This document shows positions 10,900 to 26,739 of a stretch of DNA of 64,000 bases, in pieces. Made by a program: the position numbers and the translations under genes. The number at the start of each line of letters is the position of its first letter. Position 1 is the first letter of the stretch. The notes beneath the pieces were generated by a model. The model was given only the letters and a program-made list of their open reading frames with translations, searched no databases and had not been told where the DNA came from. Location of the stretch: the NCBI RefSeq assembly GCF_020382885.2, contig NC_058515.1:5997223-6061222 (forward strand). The letters run 5' to 3'. The stretch comes from Scatophagus argus. Lineage: Eukaryota > Chordata > Actinopteri > Scatophagidae.

Positions 10900-13480
10900 A
10901 TAGTTTCATTCTCTTAAAAGCGAGTTTTGTGTTTAAGTATGTTCTTTATGCCGGAGATAATATCAGACGAGACGTTTTATTTTCAAAACGTACAGGTGTG
11001 TGTAAGTGTGTCACAGATGTTAACAGAGGAAGCACGTCTTTAAATTTTATCATCCTCAGATGAGTGGCATCAGCTTATTATAGCTGACATGAAAATGTTC
11101 ACTATGCGAAAACGTTTCTCTAAATGGGTCACACGCTGACGGCCTTAAAGGAACTACAGTCACAAACCCTGCTAGATGTCACATTTTCAAGATTTTCCTT
11201 TGATATAACACTTCCATCCCAGATAACTCACAAAAAATTCATCTGAAATAAAAATGAATGAAGAGCTTCCTGCCCCGGCGCATTTCGTAGTGGTCTCTGC
11301 ACTCTTCTCCTAAATCAGGTGATTTTTGACATGAACTTCCTGAAAGATGAATCAGCCAGCACTGAGAAAATCAGGTAGATGAATCTGAGAGATACTAATA
11401 CCCACAGTTGTTTGTATGATAAGCAAAAGGACTGAATTCACTCTGGCGCTTTTTGAGAGAAATTAGCCATGTGATTGAAGACCTGTCATTTTTTGTTCTT
11501 TGAAAATCTCTGTGATGATTTAGAAGATGGCTGAAGAGACATTTTCACATATAGTAGACCTACTTGCACTGAAACATCATCCACAGGAACAATAGGTTTA
11601 CACACTCAATGATAAAACCTTTTTTTATTATTATTATTTTATTATTATCTGCTCTAAATTTTGACATGTTTAGTTAGAATGGCACAGCAAAAGGGCAGAA
11701 GAGGAGAGGAAGATTCCAGTTACTACGAACCATAAGGGCTTGAATGGATTTGAAAATGTTGCTTTTGTGCCAACACCAGATTACACCTTTAATTCCACAT
11801 GAACCGGAGCCCAGGCTGAGGTCTTTGGCATGCCATTGTGTTTACTGGCTTAACATTTTACTCAGTCATGGAAAATATGTATCTAAATAATTAAAAATGA
11901 AATTAGAATTTTAGGTATAAAACATACTATCAGATCTTGAGATATGACACACAGTTTTTAATTCAGCAAGCCAAAGGTATGTGATGAGTAACATTTAACA
12001 CTGTAACATTTAATTGCTGCGGTCACATGAAGACATCAGTTTAAAAAAAAATCCAGTCGCTCCTGCCATTCTGCATAATGAGCACTTTTAATTTATTGAT
12101 GGCATAATTATGTATTTATTTATATCTATGTATCCATTTTTTTGAATGACAATATTGAAGTTTTAATGGTTTCTTGTTTCCTAAAAATGTTGTGTTTGAA
12201 GACAATCAGCTGTAAATTTTGGTGTTTAATCTTTAATGGTGATTATGTGTTGTGTAGATGTTTGACTCCATACAAATCAAATGAAGAAACCAAAATTTAT
12301 GTAACCAACCACACTGGCAATCCTTAAAAAGTCTTTCGCTCAAATGTTTAAATCTTACCCTGCATTGTTTAAAGTTTATAGTGTTCATTTCTGACCGGTT
12401 TGATTATTATCTCGTGTGACGTGATGTCAGCATACTTGGCCATTTCTCATTCAAAACATCGATCTAAAACCATCCCTCTGATAAAAATGTCAAACAGTCC
12501 CTTAAATGGCTGAAACTAAAGTTAATTCTCGGCAGAGTTTCAGGGTCTTGGTACAATACGGGGCCGCCGTGTGGCTGCGGTATCACAGGGGAGGTTTGAA
12601 GTTGACAATACCGGGAATCAGAGCCCGTCTCAGCACCTCTGTGCGCACCCCACGCCGATGTGAAACCCAACCACCGTCTCACCCACTGTCATGCACACTC
12701 ATGACTGACTCTCAGTCTGAGTCTGACACACACATATACACACACCTTTTTACATCATGGTGACATGAAGAAACATGACCTTTCATCAGCTTTCAAGGCT
12801 TTTCACTGTGGAGAGACACATTATGTTCTACACTGAAGCAAAGCAGTGTGCGACACTCTCACCTGTCGCTTCTCAATGGAAAGCCCTCTGCTCTAAAAAC
12901 ATGAAACCTATGAGTAAAAACATTTAAGACTTACTCAATATGGACTACCAACTTACTTAACCATTTAATATAGCACCGATGGAAGAATCCATGCTTCATG
13001 AGCAAATAAATAAATCCCTCCGTCACTTTGGCTGACGGGGTTTGACAACGTTCACTGAAACTCTGCTTCAAACAGTTTCACACATTCACAACACTGTGAG
13101 TGGTCGGCTAACGTGTAGCTCATCGGGAACATTTTGAAGTTCTCTGCTTCGTTCAAGGACAACATAAGGTTAGTTTCTTAAAACATTTGTGCTTCTATCC
13201 CTGCTGTCTGATTTGTATTAATGATTATTGTCAGGGCTTCAGAACATGGCGGCATTGTCACTCCTCTTAAGGCTTAACAGGGCTGCGTGACTGCCTGTCC
13301 CGTTTACGGTTTTGTAACAAGGAAATAAAATGCAACATTGGAAAACACCAGAACCAAAAACGCCAGTGTACCTATTATAAATCCACCAGATTATTAAGTC
13401 ACACAGTTCAAATTTACACATGTAACAGCAATGTATTTCAGTCAAATTAAAATCAGAAACACACTGTTAATTAAAGTTTG
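10900..13480. other. Intergenic region between slc3a2 and the convergent acidic gene
   Basis: Mostly AT-rich with no recognised gene. A GC-richer island at about 12500-12690 is open on both strands (12506-12763 plus, 12464-12682 minus), but I recognise no family and see no convincing exon borders. slc3a2 and the minus-strand gene converge here. Confidence 0.5.
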
Positions 13481-13487
13481 CACCATA

Positions 13488-13493
13488 TTTATT
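13488..13493 (-). terminator. Candidate poly(A) signal for the acidic gene
   Basis: AATAAA on the minus strand, about 190 bases past the stop codon that closes one open frame of the last putative exon. It is the first canonical signal after that exon. Confidence 0.4.
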
Positions 13494-13680
13494 ATTCTTT
13501 TCTTTTGTCCTAGAATGAACCGACTCACTTTCTTAACTGACTCGACTTCTGAGTCCAGATGCTGTGAGGTGGTGGCAACCTCCGGTGTGCAGGTCTGTGA
13601 GGAGCATCCCAAACCCACCAGCACAGAAGAAGTGAATGGAAACAACAACATCCCCTGTGCTGGTCAGGCCCGGGCGGCCC

Positions 13681-13982
13681 TCATCGTCTGGACGTGTAGG
13701 TGTAGAGGCTGGTGTCAGGGGTTGCTGTGTAAAACAGAAATAAGACAGAATGTGAGAATTGGATAATCTTTTTTATATATATATATAATCAATTTTACAA
13801 TCACAATAATAAATAAATAAAACAGATAAACAGATAATAAACAAATAAAACAGAACAGAATCAGGGTCATAAATGTACTCACTGGGTCTTGGGGCCGGGA
13901 CGCAAGTGTTGTACTGAGACAGCTTCAGTGGTTTGCTGTGGTCCTGGAATGATTGGTTGGTTGATGTCCACTCTCAACTGCC
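13681..13982 (-). other. Two putative 3' exons of the acidic gene, reading frame unresolved
   Basis: On the minus strand an acceptor (TTTTCAG after a pyrimidine/GT tract) opens an exon at 13982 that ends before GTGAGT at 13883. A second acceptor (TTTTACACAG) opens an exon at 13724. At least two frames of the first are open for most of its length. One frame runs across both exons and ends LYTYTSRR at 13681, but it meets a TGA at the very start of the first exon. These may be coding, 3' UTR, or remains of a decaying gene. I cannot decide from sequence. Confidence 0.4.
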
Positions 13983-14039
13983 CTGAAAACACACACACAC
14001 ACAAAAAAAAAATCCATTTTGGGCTTTTGCATATAAAAT

Positions 14040-14114
14040 CCTTGCACTGCACATCCATCCATCCATTTTCTATACCGCTTATTCGTCAGGGTCGCGGGGC
14101 CTTGCACTGCACAT
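14040..14114 (-). mobile_element. 45-bp retroelement tail with 15-bp target-site duplication
   Basis: The minus strand reads GCGGTATAGAAAATGGATGG, the end of an ATGG-tailed retroelement common in fish (LINE/L2-type or a SINE sharing that tail). It is flanked by perfect copies of CCTTGCACTGCACAT at 14040-14054 and 14100-14114. The 45 bases at 14055-14099 are therefore a severely 5'-truncated, recent insertion. It lies in the intron between two putative exons of the acidic gene. Confidence 0.8.
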
Positions 14115-14211
14115 ATAATCTCAAATTCATATTCACATATAAAGCTAACTGATCTGGAGTCACTAATTTATGTAAAATATTGGTATATCCGTAGTCTCAG
14201 TAATCACTCAC

Positions 14212-17200
14212 TCAGCCAGCTGACAGAAACGTGCGCACCACACTCCATACGGTCCTGCAGTAATCCCTCTCATCTGGTCCATATCTTCTCTGTCCTCGTG
14301 GAAATCCCAGTCTTGCACTTCTCAGGTCAGCATACACATCTGTGGAAACAAAAAAGAAAACAGGAAACTACAACAAAATGAATTAGAATCAATCAGTTAT
14401 TAAATTAACTGGAAGAATTGCGGGAGACTTTCATCAAAAATTTTCTACATTTTCTACTTCACCTCTAAGCCTAACCATCAACTAAAATTTCTAAGATTCA
14501 CTGGAGACTTTTCATAATTAAGTAGTTCATAAGTAATTAGTAACTTACCTGTCTGTTGTGTCTGATTCAGCCACCTACACCTAACTAAAAAGACATGATA
14601 ATCTAAAATCATGTACTAAATTGAATTACTGGTAAGTGAAATTCAGACTTGCAGGAGACATTTCATTAACTTTTAACTTACCTGTGTCTGTTATAACCAT
14701 CTAACTATTAACTATTAATTTACTATTTATTTAACTATTCAATAAATTAAATTATAATTTGCAAGACAGTTCCGTTGATGTTGAAATTACCTGCACCAAT
14801 GATGCTCCTTGCTTTCTTCACACCTCTGCTTCTTCATGCTTACATGCTCCATGTCACACTCTTCTCTGCTCCTCTTTGTGGATGAGCTGAGGCCTGAGGT
14901 TGAGGGAGAAGCCTCTTCCTGCCTTTGGGAAGCCAAGGGGAGATCTTCTGGAAGTGGGTCTGCTCGCTGCTGAGGAAGCTCCTGATGCTGGACAATGAGC
15001 TGCTGAGGAACATCAACAGGAGAAGGAGAACGATGTAATCGCCATCCCTGCCAAAAATTTTCCCTTGGCAACTGCTGGATGAGAGGGGAGCGAGGTCTGA
15101 AGTCCTGATCATCATCACCTTCATCTTCAATATCCTCAAGCAGGGACTCATAGCCAGAATCTTCGCTGGTCCAGTCAGACAAGTCCGAATTGTCATCGTC
15201 CTCAAACTCATCATCATCAGTGTCTTCATCGTCCTCAAACTCATCATCATCAGTGTCTTCATCGTCCTCAAACTCATCATCATCAGTGTCTTCATCGTCC
15301 TCAACATCATCCTCATCTTCAAGAACAACCTCAACCTCACCTCCCTCTTCCTCATCTTGGAAGATGTTGATTGGGCGATTGTGACCTTCGTCATCATCGA
15401 CAATCCCGACTACTTGAGGGAGGTCATTTCCAGCCTCATCATCGTCAGTGTCTTCATCTTCCTCGAGCTCATCTTCATCCTCTTCAACCTCATCGTTGTC
15501 GTCAGAAGAGAGTGGGGGATTGTCCTGACCTTCATCTTCAAAAACAACCTCAACCTCACCTTCCGTTTCCTCATCTGAAGAGATGATGATGGGGAGATCG
15601 TGACCTTCGTTGTCATCGATAATCCTGATGACTCCTGCAGGACGTTCAATGACGTAGTTCACACCACCTGAGGAGAACAAAGTTAAGGAACCTTGAAACT
15701 TGATTTCAAATTTCAATATCTGTCATAACATTTAATATATGTGGTTACCGTAAACATGCAAATGTAAATGAAGATCTACAATCCACATGACACCAACACA
15801 TGACAGGCCCTTTTCACAGTAATATCAAAGACTGCAGGTCTCCATTACTATGAACAGAATGAGAACAATTTGATGCTGTATTTATGTCCCACTTAATAGT
15901 TACCATTATTTACTCCACTTAATCACCTGGAAAAAATTGTAACTGTTCATGAACTTGGAAGAAACTTATTCACAGGAAGCCAAATATCGACAAGTATCGA
16001 GTTTAGGTCATTGTGTCAAATTAAAAATCTTTACAATTTACGCACATACAAAATGGCGAAATCTGAGAACCTTTAAACCCCCCGTTTGTAGCAGCTCAAT
16101 GCTGTTATAATGTTGAGACCATATTCAAGGCAGTTGGTTTGTGGGCAAGAGTTTCTCAAATGTTCTTAACACAGAAAACATTACAAAACATAATAATAAT
16201 AATAATAATAATGGTAATAACATTATACGAGGAGATTAGGAGATTTGGCGTTATGCGCTGCGCGCGCTTTTACGCACAGTTCTTCCCACGTCTCGCGCAT
16301 GCATCAGAAATGTTAAATAACAGGGAAACTATGGGAAGGCGAAGGACTATCAGACATGATTCTCGGGGGAAAATGTGATCGATCTGTCAGTGGTTCAATT
16401 AATCGACTGACAAAGGCATGTATTCTTTTGCATCCAATAACTAAGTGAATCATGTGTACTCTGGTTAATAAATCATGTGCAACCAACAACAGAACTTCTC
16501 TAAAATAGGAACAATGAACTCTGTACAGACCATACTGGTAGTTTCTAACTCCTTATCGTCACACTTCATGAGCTGCATATCAAGATGTGTGAATGAGACG
16601 GCTGCATCCCGGACGCATGGCGCCCACATGCTGCCCCGTACAGCTGACAAATAGCTCGAAAATAAAACACCAAACTAACGACAAAAGAGTTTTTCAGTGG
16701 TATTATGCAAATACCAATATGTCCAGTACAAGTTGTGTTTTGACAGTACTCAGCAGCTTAGATTGGTCCACAAACAGTCAGACATCGTTCATTTATCAAC
16801 TCCAATAAAGCCGAGCTCTTTGGTAATTTTGAAGACTCGCTGAAAATAAGTTTGTAAACTTTAAAACGAATAAATGTTTCGGTATCAGCTCCGGATACAA
16901 GTCAAGGCTCAAAAATCAGACTAAACAAGAACACAGTAAGAACGTACAGGGCTGATAACAGCTGTACGTCCTGCCGGCCCGACATTCTGACATTCAGAGA
17001 TGATGGTTCCATCGTCTTAACATTAACATGTTAATTAATAGTCACCAAATCTATGCCAACAGCCCTAATGATATAGCATCATTTAGCTACTTTTACATTC
17101 AAAACCTTTCACTGATTTCTTGTACGGATAAAACTGTAAAGAGTTTAATGAGGGTTTAACAACGAATCTGTCACAAATAAAACACTAAAATCATTTTTTC

Positions 17201-17280
17201 TTACCTGCCATGTCGTTGTCCAACTCAAGGGCCACTTCCGTCCGAAAGGGTCCCTCGTTGACGGGTCTGCTGAAGGCCAT
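14212..17280 (-). CDS. Unrecognised, very acidic, probably nuclear protein with SIM-like motifs
   Basis: Minus strand. Exon 1 (17280-17205) starts MAFSRPVNEGPF and ends in a CAG|GTAAG donor in phase 1. Exon 2 (15667-14791, 877 nt) follows a CTCCTCAG acceptor and joins in frame, giving 318 residues up to a GCAG|GTAATT donor. Residues 38-71 and 111-144 are two copies of a module (IIDDNEGHDLPIII... and IVDDDEGHNRPINI..., each ending GEVEVV[FL]EDE). An Asp/Glu block follows, with DEDTDDDEFED repeated, to about residue 184. Then come DSGYES (195-200), a Pro/Gln-rich stretch, and KRSR...KKQR (290-307), a bipartite nuclear localisation signal. LPIIISSDEE (50-59) looks like a SUMO-interacting motif. 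A 32-nt exon (14580-14549) and an exon at 14339-14212 can extend the frame to 370 residues, but that stop coincides with a donor; using an internal acceptor, the 14339 exon instead reads EVQDWDFHED.... I recognise no family and infer no function. Exons 1-2 are well supported; the 3' end is not. Confidence 0.6.
14411..14705 (-). repeat. Three degenerate tandem copies around the 32-nt exon
   Basis: On the minus strand three segments (about 14705-14645, 14587-14491 and 14485-14411) share GTTAG near the start and GTCTCC[TAC]G near the end. The first two also share an exon-like core: TGGTTATAACAGACACAG and TGGCTGAATCAGACACAACA, each followed by AGGTAAGTTA or CAGGTAAGTTA. The middle copy holds the usable exon; the first has an in-frame TAA. 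The region is AT-rich, so the similarity needs alignment. Confidence 0.4.
15193..15291 (-). repeat. 33-bp in-frame tandem repeat, three perfect copies
   Basis: Three identical 33-base units lie at 15193-15225, 15226-15258 and 15259-15291, with a diverged partial unit after them. Each encodes the 11-residue acidic unit EDDEDTDDDEF in the minus-strand gene. Perfect identity, including synonymous sites, points to recent slippage or homogenisation. Confidence 0.9.
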
Positions 17281-17470
17281 TTTCAAGCTCTTCAGTTTTC
17301 CTCAATAATTCAGTGATCCGGTAGTTTTGTTTTTCAGCAAGTTTTCCAAACGATGCTTTCCAGCGCTCAAATTCTCCAAAAGAGAAAACTTTCCACAGTT
17401 TAGGTTTGCCAGAAGTCAACTCGTGCCAAAGTCCAAGTGAAAAGGGAAGAAACAGAATATTCTGCGGCCT

Positions 17471-17476
17471 TTTATA
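17471..17476 (-). promoter_or_regulatory. TATA box of the acidic gene
   Basis: The minus strand reads CATATAAAAGGCCGC, a consensus TATA box, about 195 bases before the chosen ATG at 17280. Transcription would start near 17445. This is downstream of the ATG (17503) of a 92-codon overlapping frame, which supports MAFSRP as the true start. Confidence 0.6.
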
Positions 17477-18638
17477 TGACCTGGGTCGACATTCTGTTTC
17501 CATGGAATTTACAGACGCACATGTACGGTAGTTGTATTTACATTTTTTCCCATATCTGTGAAATATATTTTTGCTTTATTTGTGCTTTTTTTCCAGTAAT
17601 GTATTTGCAACCATTCGGTTTGCTTTCATTCTTGCAGAACTGCTATGTAGCAACATGGAGACCATAAGTTATGTTCTTGTTATAATTACATTGTAAATGT
17701 CATACAACCAGTTAACTTCGGCAAATACCGCAGATCTGAATTGTTACTGAAAATTTAGGGACAAACTGCTCAAAGAGATTAAATAGACCAGCAGATGATA
17801 TGAATTGTCCAACTTTTATGTCTGCATTTGTGGATCTCTCTCTCTTTTTCTGACTTGCTCTCCTTCAGAAGATGAAAAATGTTCAAAATCCCCCAGGCCA
17901 CAAATTTTTTAGCAACTATTAATAGTGATAGTTGAGACAACTAGTAAAAAAGGACCCGTTTGAAAAAGACAGGTTGGCATGATGGCATCACCCCCGCCCA
18001 CACATTGGCTCTATTTCTACCCCATGTTGAGAAGCATTTTACATCTTGATGTGTAGCTGTGATCATCCATTCCCGTTATTGACTCTCAAAAATGACACAG
18101 CACCTGATGTGTGCATAATGGTGACAGTTGGTGTAACCATTTTGAGTCAGGTGTCAGGCCCCTGTCAGTCTGTCAGGTCTTGGCACAGACCTGTAAGCAC
18201 CTATGCTGTTCAATGCCCAGAAAGTCAAATTTTGGGCATGTCCCTGCATACAGGTTGAGAGATAAGTGTAAAGATAAGTTCCAGAGCTTGTAATCCCAAC
18301 AGTTTAAAAAAAGTCAACTCCTCCTGCTGGTAAATGGCTGTGGAGAGTGCAGAATCTGGATCTTTATTCATCCAGAAGCCCCAGCTCTGAACCCAGTCAT
18401 CACCTCCAGAGCTTACTGGATCTCAGCAGCTGAGCAGCAGCTGCACATTTTCTACACTGGAATGGCACCATAGAGGGCACTTCATCATGTTTTATCAGCC
18501 ACAGAAGCAACCAATAGGGCACTTCTGCGCCTTTTCAAAGATTTAAGAGACTGAAACCAAATGCAAATATCTGCTCAAAAGTTTAATTTATGCATAAGTG
18601 ACATGCTCCGTATGAACATGTACTGAATACATTTGATT

Positions 18639-18662
18639 TGTGTGTGTGTGTGTGTGTGTGTG
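18639..18662. repeat. (TG)n microsatellite
   Basis: About 12 uninterrupted TG units. Confidence 0.9.
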
Positions 18663-18839
18663 AGTTTGTGGCCCTGTGAAAGCCAAAAGAGACCATAAGA
18701 GAAAATGAGGGATGAGAGGGAAGAAAAAAGCCCCAACTCAAACTGAAAGTGGGTGTATGTGTGCATGAGTGTGTGTGAGAGGTTGAAGCCACACACTAGG
18801 GTGTTTTTCTCTTGTTTCCAGCATCATTATGACACAGCT

Positions 18840-18844
<5 letters not shown>

Positions 18845-18902
<58 letters not shown>
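18845..18902. repeat. Compound (CT)n(CA)n microsatellite
   Basis: About 17 CT units pass directly into about 11 CA units. Confidence 0.92.
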
Positions 18903-18903
<1 letters not shown>

Positions 18904-21900
18904 TGGCATTATGACGAGGTAGATGAAAGGCTGAAAGATCAACTGAAAGAATGATGGCTGATCATCTTTAGTGAAACTACATCTCTCGTTCGTCGGCTCT
19001 CTCTCCTCCCCCCTTTCTCACACACATGCCGATCTACCGCCCGACCATACACACATGTATTTCACTGGCACTGACACATCTCTCATCGTAATGACAACTT
19101 ACCAGGTACGCCTTCATTTTTATTCTGTTTACATTTTAGTTTTATTTTTTGCTTGAGGATATTACAAGGCAGGAGTGTTTTAGAGTGAGTGTAGAGGAAG
19201 TTAAGCTTCATCCAACGTTAGCATTATTAGCATACTCTCATAACACTAAAACACACCTGCCTTAACTTGTAGCTATCAGAGCCATTTTTTCCTCACTTAG
19301 CTACTAAAAGGTACAACTGGAACATTTTTGGGATTTCATGGGTTAAATTATTAGATTTGAACATCCAGCCATGTGAATGTAGATGAATCCAGATAAAATT
19401 CAGGGATCTGCTCTGTTTAGGTCACAAAGGAAGAGATCAATTTTGCAACGCGACGGTCACCTTACTTGGAGTAAAATCTATCAATTCATTCTAATCAGAA
19501 TACTACTTTGACTGACTGAACATCTGATAAGTCTGATTGAACAGCTGCATATTGCACGACTAAAGCAAGATTTTTCTTTCTCTACATCACTTGTAACATT
19601 TCAGTGTTGTTGCCCACAGTATATTGGTGTTTGCACCAAACATACCCTTACATAGACAGGCTTAAAACCGCATGCTTGACTTTGTTCACCGTGAACACGT
19701 TGCAAAGATAACATGATATGATCGCCAGGGCCTCAGTTTATTCTCTGTCCCACTTACAGTTAACCGTATTAAGATTATTGTTTTGTTGGGATCCATCTGC
19801 AAAACAGGTCCACATGTAATTTGAAGTCTGGGATGTAACCATAAAAGCCGTTAATTTGTTAAGCTTTGATAAGAATGTGAATCTACACTCAGTGTTGATG
19901 AACTTCATAGTCATTATGGAGAATGTCTGTAAGTTTATCCAAAAGTTGGAAAGAGTTTGTTCTTGTCATCGTCGCTGCTTTTTGACCTCCTTTGATTCTG
20001 TGACCTCCTTTGACATCTGCACACAGAACGAGGGCAACAGCCTCTATTGTGTTTTTTACGTTATGAAGTCAAACTTCAGCGTCTGTGCCAACGAAGGCCC
20101 GAATTAAAAACATCTGCACTCAACGTTTTCGCCCCTCAACATGAAAATCAAAGCTCGAGTAACCAGAATTGAGTCGAGTTCTGGTCTCCTTGTTCCAGCA
20201 TTTGTCTTTAAATGGCAGTAGCAGTGCTGTTCATGGGCTTCCACATTCTGTCTGGATGAAGGGGTGAAATGAGGAAACGGAAGAAGATTGCAATGGGTTG
20301 CAGCGCATTTCAGTTTTATTCAGAGACATTTGGCAGGGAAATCAAATAATTATTTCACTGTTAACTGTTGTATTGCATTATTAGGTCTTACAATGTTGAT
20401 CAGTGTTCGACACAATGGACTAAAACACAAACTAAATGAATTCCTTCCCTTCGAGTACAGCCTCGAGCAGAACGCGTGCCTCTGACAACAATTATAGACC
20501 TAAGTGTTCGTACATCAGCTTTAAACATCTTGACGCTGCAGTTTTTTCCTTAGGCTTCTCTGCAAAAGTGCTGGAGCTCTTTGAAGTAGCATAGGAGCCG
20601 CAAGCGAACAGCAATTTAACATTCTGCCATGTATTGTGGACTGGATTCAGGTTTGACTCTTGGTTTTGGCCACTGCGCAACAGCAATGTGTTGTCAGCCT
20701 TTTGTGTGTCACTATGGCTTTAATTTTCAAAAGTTTTCCAGGGCTCGCTGCAGGGAGGGATCCCAACCGTGATGCCGCGGAATGGTGTGTTTCTGCGGAT
20801 GAACAATTTGACATTTAGTATCATGGGCCGAAAGCTAAATTTTAGCTCCATAAAGCTATAAAAACTTTTCCCACTCAGTTTGCCTTTTGTCAGACATTGC
20901 CTGAGCCGACTGAATCTGATGTGTTTTTCAAACAGCGTTTTTTGATATTTTTTGACACAAAGCTGCTGCTGGTGAAGTATCAGGAAAACATACAGTGCTT
21001 CACCTTCAACCATGAGAACCTGTAGCTCTCACAGTTGCTGTGAGCCAGCTGTGGGTCATGCAGACACTCAGCTTTTGAGGACAGACAGTTACGTTGTAGT
21101 CATCGCCTTGAACACGTTCCAGTATTCTTCCCCTGACTGATGCTCCTCAGTAACGTCATTGCTGATTAGCTTACGATGTTCCTGTCTCTTTACGGTGCAG
21201 TGAAACCAAGTGCGTGTGACTTAAAATTGCTTGACTACAAACAGGATCACCATTCAAATTAGTATGCGACTTCTGATCACTTGGCTGCAGCAGCGATGAG
21301 TTAGGTGTGTCAAAGTAAAGGATGTAAACTTTTGTCAAATCCATATTTTTTGTGCTTATATTTGCACTTATTTCAGATCAGACTCGAGAGACTCCTTCTC
21401 GCTTGTACATTCAAATTATTTTCTTTTGATCAGTGTCAAAGATCCTAAGTACATCCAGTGCGATTTAAAGATACAAAAAAGTCTATAACAACACAATTTT
21501 TTCCTACTTGATTTTGCCATATTTACTTTATCACAGCATACTGGTGTTATGCAGAAATCAAAGTCGCTGACTAATGTAAAGCTACAACAGCAGGAAAACT
21601 GGAGCGTAGAAGGCTACAGTGACACATAGGACATCCATTGTCAGTCAGCATGGGAATAATGAAATGCATCCATCTCATCCATCTCATTAGCAGCAGCAGG
21701 CAGACTGCACGTAGATATGACTGTAAAGTGTTTGGCTTCCTCACTTCTGTTGTTATTTATTATGAATGCAGCGATCCTTACCTTACCACTTACACGTTAC
21801 ATACTTACACTGTCAATAAACTAAACAAATCCTTCAAAAAACAAAAAAGAAAATTCTTTAACTGCAGAACTTGTAAACAGAGGGGCATGACGGCCTTCAA

Positions 21901-24900
21901 AATCTAACGTCAATTTGCGGGAAAATTACTTTTTTAATTTTGAATCAGTTTTATAATCCAATAGTATTAAACAGGATCATTGGTTAAGTTCATCCACAGG
22001 TTTTGTGTTGCCGTCATTAATCAACAAATACAATAACATTTTCTATTGTCCTTTGTGGGGAAATTATGATGATATAACCTGAACAGTAAGCCGTGATTGG
22101 GGTTTATATTTAAAAATCTAATCAAATAACAATTTTCATCACTGACACTGGAGTTCTATATCAGGAGAATGAATTAACTGCAAATCATTTTATTCTAAAT
22201 AATTCAAAAATGCAGTGCAGTCTGTCTTAATCATTTTACTGACAGTTACTGACACTTGAGTTCTTTGGTGTTATTTTCCATATGCAACAGTGTATTTTAT
22301 CATATACCTGCAATACCGCGCACCAAATCCACTATTAATATGAATGTTGTTATAGTTTAAAGGAAGAACACCTCTACTGGTGATATCACAGGAATTTGGT
22401 TTATGTATTCGTAAAATATGCATTTTACAGGCCGCCTTCTTTCAGGTCACCTTCTGTTGACCTCTGACCTTTTGTTTGAAAATATTAATATATTCAGAAG
22501 CCATTTACAATTATAAATTACAGTCACTATCGTTGGTATTTTCTACACCCAATGTACGGGGAAAATACAGTGAAGTAGTAATAGTGTCATATTGTAGCAG
22601 CCGTGGCATGTTTTGTGGCTTTGTGTACGTTCAGACTTAATCACAATACAATTACAGACTTAAGATAGAAGGACGTAATGGCAAAGTTGCCATTAATTTG
22701 TGTGCACATCTACAACATGATGCTGCAGAAAATGTTAATGTCGAAGCTTGATAACTTTCTTAGCGCTTGAGAAGCTCACTGAGGAGTCCCAGATTTGGTT
22801 TTAGATAGTACAGCTTGAACTTGGTTGTCACCGTCACAATGGTCTTCCATAGGAATGCATACTCAACTTTTTGCCACACTTTACCATGTGTGTTTAGAAA
22901 TGAAGGTCCATCACATGAAACAGAAAAAGATCCACGGTTAAACCGCGTATATTGAAGCGAAAGGAAATTAACACTGTACTGTTGTTATTGTATTTGATCA
23001 TTTCATGAACATTTTACAAAACTTTTAGGTGACTCATCCTGTGGTGCAGACCGAAATGGCTTATTGTGCATGAAAGAAGCATTCCTTAGAAGTTTGTAGC
23101 ATTGCAAACACAGGTGCACACTACTTGTTCTCTGAACATTTTCTGTCTTATGAGCTTGTATTAGATACGAAAGGCCCTGACAAGTTGTTTCAGGCCCACA
23201 TTTAATACTGAGAGCATGGAGGGAGCACCAAATGCATTAAAAGGAAAATGTGTTTTATTTCCAACCACATTATTTTTCAGTTAAAACACATTAGCCTGTT
23301 TGGATTTTCCCTAAACGTTTTCTTCCCATAACGCAAACCCGCCTGGGGTCCCAACAACAAAGCTGTGAATGTCTGCTGTGTGTGTCATGTTTGCATGTGC
23401 TGAAATAGTGATCATAGGTCCAATCAGACATAAAGTTTCGCTGCACCCAAACTTTGCACAATACTTCTACATGAATGTGTAATTTGCTTAAAAAACCTTC
23501 CCGTCTTCTATGTAGCTTCTATTTTACGTGCTGTCTGTCATGCTATGCTGTCTGACAGTGTCTGGACACTTTCCATAGCCGTTCTTGACACTTGGGGATC
23601 ATTGTTTAATAGAAGTACACTGTCTTTTTGAGTAAATCTCTTGAAATTATTCAATCAGAGTTGCTTTTTAACGTTGAGCACTTTTATAAAAAGGCGTTAA
23701 AGTTTTTGAACAAAAATCTTTTCAGTTATTACGTGAGCAGCGGTTTAGTAGCAGTTTCACTTGTGTGCATTCTGTATTTTTAAATACATTGTGATGGATT
23801 TTAAGTGACATGGCACTGTCTTGTACTGTCCGTTATGCATGCTTCAGTCATCAGCGTGGACCATTGTCACTAAGGTTATCGAGGGCGAATGAACTTGGCA
23901 TAATGGTAGTGCTGGTGTTATCTGGCGGTTTAATTTCTCCCTCATCCATTCAGATTCTATGTTTCCGCCAGTCATCACTTCTTTTCACAGTGACAGAGAG
24001 ACAGCTCGGTGAAAAAATAAGTCGAAAGAAAAGTCCAGAAGAGCAGATCTGTTTCCCCCTCCTCTGCTCCCGCAGGTTTTTATGGTGAATTTGAGAGAAA
24101 ACGAGAAGCGTCTCCCCCGACAACACTCCTCCGCGCTCCCCTTCCATCTTCTCACATCCTTTCATTCACACATTTTTTTTTCATTTGGCTGTTTTCTCAA
24201 GGTTACCATCTGCATACTCACAGGGGGCACAGAGAAATTAGCAAACACTGTCAGAATCGTTTGTTTAAAGAAGGAACACATTCAGTGTTGAGTTTTAGAT
24301 ACAGCGAACAGAAAGTCAAGAAACCACGTTAATTTCAGCTTTGGCTTTTGAACGCTAAAGTTAATGCCTCACTGAAAGTGCAGAATAGATCTTTGAAAAG
24401 TTAATTTGAGGGATTTGATTCGAAAAACAACCTTCTTTTCTTCTAGTCTTTTCAACCAGTCATTATGATGTTTTTTTCTCTCTGCACTCAGTTACTGAAT
24501 ATTCTGAAAGGACAGTAGTTTTTCCTAAAATTCAAGACTAAATTGTGAGACGAGTTTAGGGACTTACAAGCGTGACACTTTGATTTCAACAAGGCGATTC
24601 CCATGTTGGGTGAGTACAAACCATGTGAATGAAATATCTGGGGAAAAGCGCTGTGTTAATTCGCTTTCAGCGCACACTTTTCAGGAACCTGATTCATTTT
24701 GGTAAACTCTGGAATAGCACAGTCTTAGTCCCTGCTCTAACTGCATGTTGTTGGCTGCAAGTGTAAGGATAGAAAACACCAGGAAACCGTCTTCCTGGTT
24801 CCTAACCACAGCAATGACTCATATGTTGACATTTATAAAATGTTTTATATGCAGGATTTATTTTCTTGTATACTGAAAATGTTTGACATCGGCTAAAACT

Positions 24901-25162
24901 CCTTACATTTAGCACAGAATAGGGTATACATTGATGAAGTGTAATGTAGATGAGTCATCTGCAGAAGCCTACTTTGGCTTCAAAAATCATGATATAATAG
25001 ATCAATAAAATAAGGTGATCACACATGCTAATTTTGAGGTTATTGTGTCAGGCAGTTTGTGTAGTTACCACATTATTATCTATTATGCATGTTAATCCTG
25101 AGGTTTCCAGCAATGTGAAGTGTCACACTGTACAATTGACCTCAGCATTAACATGATCTCAC

Positions 25163-25164
<2 letters not shown>

Positions 25165-25202
<38 letters not shown>
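25165..25202. repeat. (AC)n microsatellite
   Basis: About 19 uninterrupted AC units. Confidence 0.92.
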
Positions 25203-25209
<7 letters not shown>

Positions 25210-26454
25210 AGTGACACTCTGACTCTGACTCTGGCTCCTTTGTCTCATGCTCTTTTTGTCCACTCTGTGTAACATGATGAAGTGATTTATTCTAGATCCT
25301 GATCAGCAAACAAATTGATTCTATGATTCTATGCGCTACTTATAACTGTTCATTTACAACCAATAAATGTTCTGTTCAGAGATTACATTTGAAAGCCAAA
25401 ATTGAACATTGAAGACATTTAGACTGAAATACAGTTTGTGTCCAATTTGCAATCACTGCTCGCACGCAGATCACTTATGGCGGCCACACATTTCACGAAC
25501 GACTGTCGCTCACAAATTGCACATAAATGCATGAGTGTCACACGGCCTCGCGTGCTCATGTTTGTGTCGCAAGTGTAGTGTTTGTTTAGATGAGTGAAAT
25601 GGTTCAAGAAGAAATGGTGTAAATCTGTTAAAACGGGTCCCGTGGCTGAATTTGCAGCGATGTTCTGGCAAGTTTTGTATCAACAAGGTCGGGCATCATA
25701 GGTCAGTGAAAATAACTGTTTTATCTGAGAGATATTTATCCATGATTTTCTGTGTGAGTTATTTATAGCAGGTGCTGCCTTCTTCATACAATATTCACAG
25801 TTTTCTGGGCTTAGAAAATACTAAAATACAATTGGTGTACTTTCAATTGGGAGGGAAAGACACTTCCTTAGAGCTCCTGTGAGATTTTATGTGTTTACTT
25901 TGCACATTTTATCAGTAACCATACACTTTTTCATATACCATATAAATAATATTTATAAATGTACCTTTGACTGACATTTTTAAAAACAGTAGTGTAGACT
26001 GCAAAAGATCATTTAGTTGACTGTCCAAGAGGCTCATAAGTAAATCATTTTCTTTTCGTTTCTACTCTTGTGTCCACAGAGTCTTAAGTATGCATTTTGA
26101 CTAAATAGCTCATCCCATGCAAGTGACGCCAAACAAAACTGCTGTAAATTATTTCAAGTCTGGCACACACATACCTTAAGAAAATATTGGATACAGTGGA
26201 AACGTATATATACTGTTATTTCACGCCACACAGTTACTCCACATATAGTACATCTTACTGCTTTCTACTTTATTTTATACAACAATAACTTAATAAGGAT
26301 GAAGATCAAATGGCTTGTATGATATAATAAATTCCTTTGCTTTTAACAGCTAATAATAATATTGTGTGCAAAAGGTAGACCTGACATCATCTGGGTCACC
26401 AACAGAATAAAAATATACGTTAAAAAATCTTTACCATTCTTAGTGATTGGCAAG

Positions 26455-26490
26455 AATTTCCCTTCAGGGATAAATAAAGGAATTCTGATG
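26455..26490 (+). mobile_element. Retroelement 3'-tail-like fragment
   Basis: AATTTCCCTTCAGGGATAAA followed by TAAAGGAATTCTGATG resembles the 3' tail shared by many fish retroelement copies (ATTTCCC..GGGATTAATAAAG..TTCTGAT). It is short and I cannot assign a family. Confidence 0.4.
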
Positions 26491-26696
26491 AGTTGTTGTT
26501 TATTCACTTTTTCCAATTTCAGAGTTTTAGGTCTTTAGGACTTTTACTTTATATTAACAAAGTATTTTGATATATTAGCAATAACCTCAGAGAGGAAACC
26601 AGCGAACATGTTAGGGTTCTGAAGCAGAATAGCTCTGGAATTTAGTACCGTTTAATTTAAAGTGCTTGTTTGCTCCTTGTTTTGTCTGTAAAAGGC

Positions 26697-26698
<2 letters not shown>

Positions 26699-26739
<41 letters not shown>
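26699..26739. repeat. (GT)n microsatellite
   Basis: About 20 uninterrupted GT units. Confidence 0.92.

Follow-up and report, generated by a model that had tools for sequence, protein, structure and literature searches.

We describe a gene on the minus strand of a 64,000-nucleotide stretch of the Scatophagus argus genome (RefSeq assembly GCF_020382885.2, contig NC_058515.1, positions 5,997,223 to 6,061,222 of the forward strand), hereafter referred to as the window, whose numbering is used for all coordinates. This gene is probably an intact, spliced, protein-coding gene of the TATA type and a young member of a family that undergoes quick duplication and loss. The initial annotation, made from the sequence of the window, had called it an orphan; because it belongs to a multi-copy family in the genome of the fish itself, with 31 pieces matching exon 2 (the window included) in addition to copies of its promoter and exon 1, this description had to be abandoned. 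The same annotation regarded it as a real or recently real gene on account of its in-frame exons, good splice sites and TATA box, a view that was upheld, as the promoter and the exon-intron structure are common to older paralogues.

Structure of the gene and its product

The two exons fuse in frame to encode 318 residues, and the frame is closed by a TAA codon whose final base is position 14787 (Table 1). Intron 1 is delimited by the donor GCAG/GTAAGA and the acceptor TTTGTTCTCCTCAG/GTGG, where the slash marks the splice site. The 5΄ untranslated region contains no ATG and was taken to be 165 nt long, a length that is assumed, the start site not having been observed directly. We compared the length of the exon 2 frame with simulations under nine Markov settings, which combined three source sequences with orders 1 to 3 and comprised 2000 simulations each, and found that at least 290 open codons in 881 nt were reached in 0 to 0.1% of simulations. 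The frame is therefore not a product of chance or a by-product of composition.

The encoded protein has an isoelectric point (pI) of 4.05 and a net charge of –95. Its characterization as an acidic and internally duplicated protein (residues 38–71 against 111–144) with a tail resembling a bipartite nuclear localization signal (NLS; residues 290–307) was confirmed, whereas the statement that it consists mostly of Asp and Glu is correct for residues 40–214, where these amount to 54% and Lys and Arg together number two, and not for the protein as a whole (36%). An AlphaFold2 model of the exon 2 frame, built with no alignment, had a mean pLDDT (predicted local distance difference test) of 43.1 with no residue at 70 or above, which fits disorder but constitutes weak evidence for it.

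The absence of a recognizable family, noted at the outset, was also confirmed. For the 318-residue protein, Pfam returned no family above the cut-off, the sole listing being DUF7767 (E 3.7); a relative on C21 gave KIND below the cut-off (E 0.016), and the frame of the C13 locus described below gave nothing. A search of the PDB identified no relative (one chain, gamma filamin, E 0.56), Rfam gave no match in the window at gathering scores, the viral contigs, with 18 candidate stretches, yielded no believable relative, and five motif strings of the family did not occur in the literature collection searched. Of 174 such stretches in prokaryote genome contigs, a single one, on a Eubacterium contig, matched 43 residues of a Q/E-rich tract at 51%, which we put down to chance.

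Two further observations concern the borders of the gene. A second open frame of 116 residues, in another reading frame, covers the promoter and exon 1 (17225–17575, minus strand), and a Pfam scan of it gave no match. On the 3΄ side of the stop codon (13480–14340, minus strand) there are open pieces with splice-like borders that are possibly 3΄ exons; three such pieces, at 13.5–14.3 kb, had no match in a Pfam scan.

Table 1. Features of the gene and of the segment that carries it, in window coordinates
Feature	Position	Strand	Basis or remark
Conserved upstream promoter element CATGGAAACAGAATGTCGAC, 20 nt	17485..17504	-	19 of 20 bases identical at the distant C13 locus
TATA box TATAAAAG	17469..17476	-	Read in sequence; TATAAAA also in relatives
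Exon 1, coding part	17205..17280	-	ATG at 17280 (context AAAATGG); 25 codons and first base of codon 26
Intron 1, GT-AG	15668..17204	-	Splice sites read in sequence
Exon 2, coding part	14787..15667	-	Terminates in TAA
Internal repeat, first copy, residues 38–71	15531..15632	-	Sequence comparison
PIIISSDE, residues 51–58, sole SUMO-interacting-like motif of the ELM forward type	15570..15593	-	Number not above chance
Internal repeat, second copy, residues 111–144	15312..15413	-	Sequence comparison
Acidic minisatellite, 33-bp unit, in frame, 3.8 copies	15193..15317	-	Follows the internal duplication
DSGYES, residues 195–200, beta-TrCP phosphodegron-like	15144..15161	-	Matches the pattern DSG-x(2,3)-S/T
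Bipartite NLS-like KRSREECDMEHVSMKKQR, residues 290–307	14823..14876	-	Motif; equivalent to module 1 of the two or three found in C23 and C15
Possible polyadenylation signal AATAAA	13488..13493	-	Read from sequence
Duplicated segment carrying the gene	11599..26708		Three copies found, left end identical; right end approximate (~26.7 kb)

A multi-copy family in the S. argus genome

We searched the S. argus genome (570.7 Mb, 48 contigs) for paralogues. The 31 pieces that match exon 2 DNA include several at a single locus and some that comprise the acidic tract alone; with the 129 C-terminal residues as the query, eight genomic places were found, including the window. A copy on C23, located 315 kb from the window, is 94–99% identical and is broken by one TAG and deletions. 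The copy on C15 has no stop in the matched part but contains a frame break, and the stretch comprising the promoter and exon 1 is unmatched there; it can therefore not represent a working version of this gene. Four decayed copies of exon 2, with two to three stops each, were found on C8 (L014), C2 (L013) and C21 (L012 and L015). Judging from these sequences, the window copy alone is intact among the closer copies.

The promoter and exon 1 gave 17 genomic matches, a count to be read as a lower bound: the window, the C23 copy (98% identity), 13 near-full-length copies of 82–83% identity on C2, C8, C13 and C21, and two partial ones. When 10 of the 13 were aligned, the ATG was present in all of them and TATAAAA in nine, and the donor GT was replaced by AT in all 10. 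Together with intron 1, the family's promoter and exon 1 occur in repeated, amplified copies on these four contigs (L041–L050, L052), and repeated pieces of intron 1 surround the decayed exon 2 copies. Close to the decayed copies at L013 and L014, we also observed long proline-rich stretches built of repeat units of some 25 residues and open in several frames.

The gene plan is evidently old, as older relatives display it. An older relative on C21 (L018) has a TATA box, a short exon 1 with an ATG and a GT donor, and an exon 2 beginning with GGVNY, and its tail match holds one TAG; a relative on C14 (L016) has the same plan and has lost the start codon and the acceptor AG, and that on C5 (L017) is a truncated piece of the family. 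The donor, TATA box and 5΄ untranslated region of the window gene align with those of the older C21 and C14 relatives. A more distant locus on C13 (L051, L053) contains a 209-residue open frame with the end STSGLKSSTRRSREEDDEEQATTKWPRWSDDSDSD. A 40-residue query from its tail matched the window at 51% over 35 residues (E 0.027) and the four decayed copies at 53% over 34 residues (E 0.001–0.002), and in the comparison of its promoter (L053) with that of the window the 20-nt element, with 19 identities, was the best local match. The C13 locus is linked to the window gene by this tail match and this promoter element.

TATAAAA is found in the C23 copy and L018 as well, with ATTTAAG in the C14 relative and TATATTA at the C13 locus, and the GT donor is shared by the C23 copy and the C14, C21 and C13 relatives, the array type having AT. 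The window gene itself displays the hallmarks of the family, namely a TATA box, a short exon 1, a GT-AG intron, an acidic exon 2 and a tail of the form STSG..KR..KRQR. The possibility that the promoter element and TATA box are common to other genes was considered and rejected: the combination, in the form searched, occurs at four genomic places, which are the window, the C23 copy and two with different spacers that were judged to be chance, and the backward control gave none.

These results indicate that a gene which protein searches would class as an orphan is what survives, in its own genome, of a family that turns over fast and has kept its promoter conserved. The case looks like one of rapid gene turnover rather than a lone mystery gene, the other genomic copies being mostly broken. 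The graded ages of the copies (about 2% and about 12% noncoding divergence, and far older) make it possible to trace the gain, change and loss of motifs in an acidic disordered protein.

Rates of change and the state of the reading frame

Noncoding divergence from the window was approximately 0.118 for the C15 copy and approximately 0.018 for the C23 copy (pooled values). We computed the ratio of nonsynonymous to synonymous substitution rates (dN/dS) between the window and L018, and obtained 0.56 (45 codons) and 0.53 (44 codons), which indicates constraint (pooled Fisher P 0.037, with rounded counts); the two copies of the internal repeat gave 0.69 (34 codons). The corresponding values between the window and the C15 copy were 0.99 for 113 C-terminal codons and 0.69 for 106 codons of the repeat block, a neutral rate. 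Because L018 shows constraint and nonsynonymous change relative to C15 equals noncoding change, the family was, on the evidence of these comparisons, formerly constrained, and its recent copies evolve at the neutral rate. For the window branch since the C15 split, the neutral expectation that the ATG is kept and no stop arises was 0.12, and that no frameshift arises was 0.20 at the rate of intron 1 or 0.009 at that of all noncoding DNA. Such low odds of neutral survival speak for selection on the frame until recently.

A less probable explanation, which nevertheless deserves serious consideration, is that the window copy became a pseudogene only very recently: as the last member of a family that is dying out, it would not yet have acquired a stop and would lack any present function. 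Relative to C15, nonsynonymous sites have changed no differently from noncoding DNA (Fisher P 0.77), nor is there a difference between synonymous and nonsynonymous rates (P 0.65). The comparison with the C23 copy over 158 codons yielded 0 synonymous and 10 nonsynonymous changes, together with one TAG and a 6-bp gap in the C23 copy. The window copy is itself truncated at the C-terminus, where it stops early and has AT-rich DNA instead of a second NLS module, which is retained in both the C23 and the C15 copy; these two nearest copies are themselves broken. Neutral substitution alone since the C23 split would leave the frame open with a probability of 0.71, and the values of 0.12, 0.20 and 0.009 given above take no account of the window copy having been singled out for its open frame. 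Preservation of the phosphodegron-like motif is also uneven: DSG is present in all five aligned sequences and DSGYxS in three of five sequence types (the window and the C21 and C14 relatives), but the DSGxxS pattern is missing from C15 and from the repeat-embedded type, and it arises in 4.2% of shuffled window proteins. The retention of DSG and DSGYxS counts in favor of a functional gene; the other points weigh against an intact gene under present selection. However, the TATA box, the ATG, both splice sites and all 318 codons are intact in the window, and neutral evolution makes it less likely that the frame would have stayed open after the C15 copy split off (0.12 × 0.009–0.20). We favor an intact gene.

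SUMO-interacting motifs

The initial annotation also described the protein as bearing SUMO-interacting motifs (SIMs) and named a SUMO reader among its possible roles. PIIISSDE matches the ELM pattern and is followed by acidic residues. The number of SIMs was, however, not above chance for the ELM forward pattern given in PMC5098910 (1 against 0.95 expected, P 0.64), nor for both ELM orientations together (3 against 1.38 expected, P 0.14); by the forward pattern, the C5 and C21 relatives have none. A looser set of patterns, which was picked after seeing the sequence and on which we do not rely, gave five sites against 0.49 in shuffles, with none of 5000 shuffles reaching five, and DL(P/S)IYIS and GEVQV occur in the C5 and C21 relatives. 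By the ELM counts, therefore, SIMs beyond chance were not found, these counts lend little weight to a SUMO reader, and a multi-SIM reader of SUMO chains is an unlikely identity for the protein.

Duplicated segment and genomic context

The gene lies in a duplicated segment that aligns with gaps between the copies; its identity to the window by block is 73–87% for C15 and 92–98% for C23, omitting one block of 75% in the acidic repeats of the C23 copy. The three copies found have an identical first base (TACACACTCAATGA; window 11599, C15:20833120, C23:5695114), with unrelated flanks, and the left 402 bases used as a genome query identified only three places, which are the known copies. Of the four decayed copies of exon 2, the pair on C21 have reverse-transcriptase stretches next to them, one above the Pfam cut-off (L012) and a weaker one below it (L015), and retroelement-like peptides were recognized by eye at the C2 locus (L013). 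These features would suit a gene that is the cargo of, or is derived from, a mobile element. However, inspection of the segment copies for inverted terminal repeats or target-site duplications revealed none, the left end exists in three places only, and the C8 locus (L014) and 3.4-kb stretches at 10 array copies contained none of the retroelement peptides sought, no whole-segment transposase search having been made. A mobile-element origin is unlikely.

Another improbable reading is an intragenomic arms race, in which an acidic nuclear protein would be selected for rapid change. The promoter, exon 1 and intron 1 are amplified on four chromosomes, partly near retroelement fragments, and these cassettes could influence the intact gene via small RNAs or transcript interference. 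Comparable amplification is known from ampliconic germ-line conflict genes elsewhere. Independently of this reading, germ-line expression, if it occurs, would make the window gene a candidate for a part in genome conflict.

A 46-bp piece (14055–14100) lies between two perfect 14-bp direct copies (ATGTGCAGTGCAAG; 14041–14114 in all). It resembles the tail of a common fish short interspersed element, and it is likely a truncated retroposon insertion. As for neighboring genes, Pfam confirmed SLC3A2_N and, in addition, an ATP-binding stretch of the carbamoyl-phosphate synthase type; the proposed ELM2-SANT neighbor was not confirmed, with no Pfam match in the open reading frames given and no candidate exon seen.

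Possible function and comparison with known systems

By analogy, the product of the window gene would most likely be a disordered, polyacidic protein of the nucleus with basic proteins as its binding partners, similar to prothymosin or to the acidic part of GCNA. If the gene is transcribed, the NLS-like tail would carry the product to the nucleus, where the disordered polyanion may bind basic partners, for example histones or other basic DNA-bound proteins, and could serve as their sink or chaperone in the manner of prothymosin alpha. Phosphorylation of DSGYES might allow SCF-beta-TrCP to remove the protein, which would possibly be short-lived. The fast sequence change fits a protein whose charge and handful of short motifs are under selection, or one whose function is being lost.

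According to PMC5098910, the acidic part of GCNA is, like the window protein, very acidic, repetitive, predicted to be disordered, fast evolving and equipped with SIM-like motifs, and mouse GCNA consists of the acidic disordered part alone, with a pI of 4.17. In its ancestral form GCNA combines an SprT-like protease domain with a zinc ribbon and an HMG box. The window protein differs from GCNA in that a Pfam scan identified neither an SprT nor a zinc-ribbon part in it, and in that its sequence does not match the gcna-like locus of its own genome. Two SprT places were found in this genome: one on C12 that looks like gcna, having an SprT-like domain and, below threshold, a zinc-ribbon match, and one on C19 that looks like sprtn by eye. 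A tblastn comparison of the window protein with both stretches gave nothing better than E 0.48. That the gene is a GCNA paralogue retaining the acidic part alone, as in the mouse, is hardly credible: the general character agrees with what PMC5098910 describes (pI 4.05 against 4.17, repeats, acidity, an NLS-like tail), but membership fails by sequence comparison.

The tail also shows a weak resemblance to the UBA2 C-terminal domain (UBA2_C, PF16195), which appears only when the C-terminal 129 residues are scanned alone (E 0.067, 14.2 bits against a cut-off of 25). Substrates of beta-TrCP carry a degron of the pattern DSG-x(2,3)-S/T, with DSG-x-x-S in substrates such as Emi1, and DSGYES is a putative degron of the same kind. 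Prothymosin alpha, a polyanion without fixed structure, has a bipartite NLS of the KR-x-KKQ(K/R) type close to its C-terminus. The window protein is longer than prothymosin alpha and has internal repeats, the DSGYxS motif and a P/Q/S-rich stretch, and it appears to share with it, as far as charge and motif indicate, the nature of a disordered polyanion with a C-terminal bipartite NLS-like sequence.

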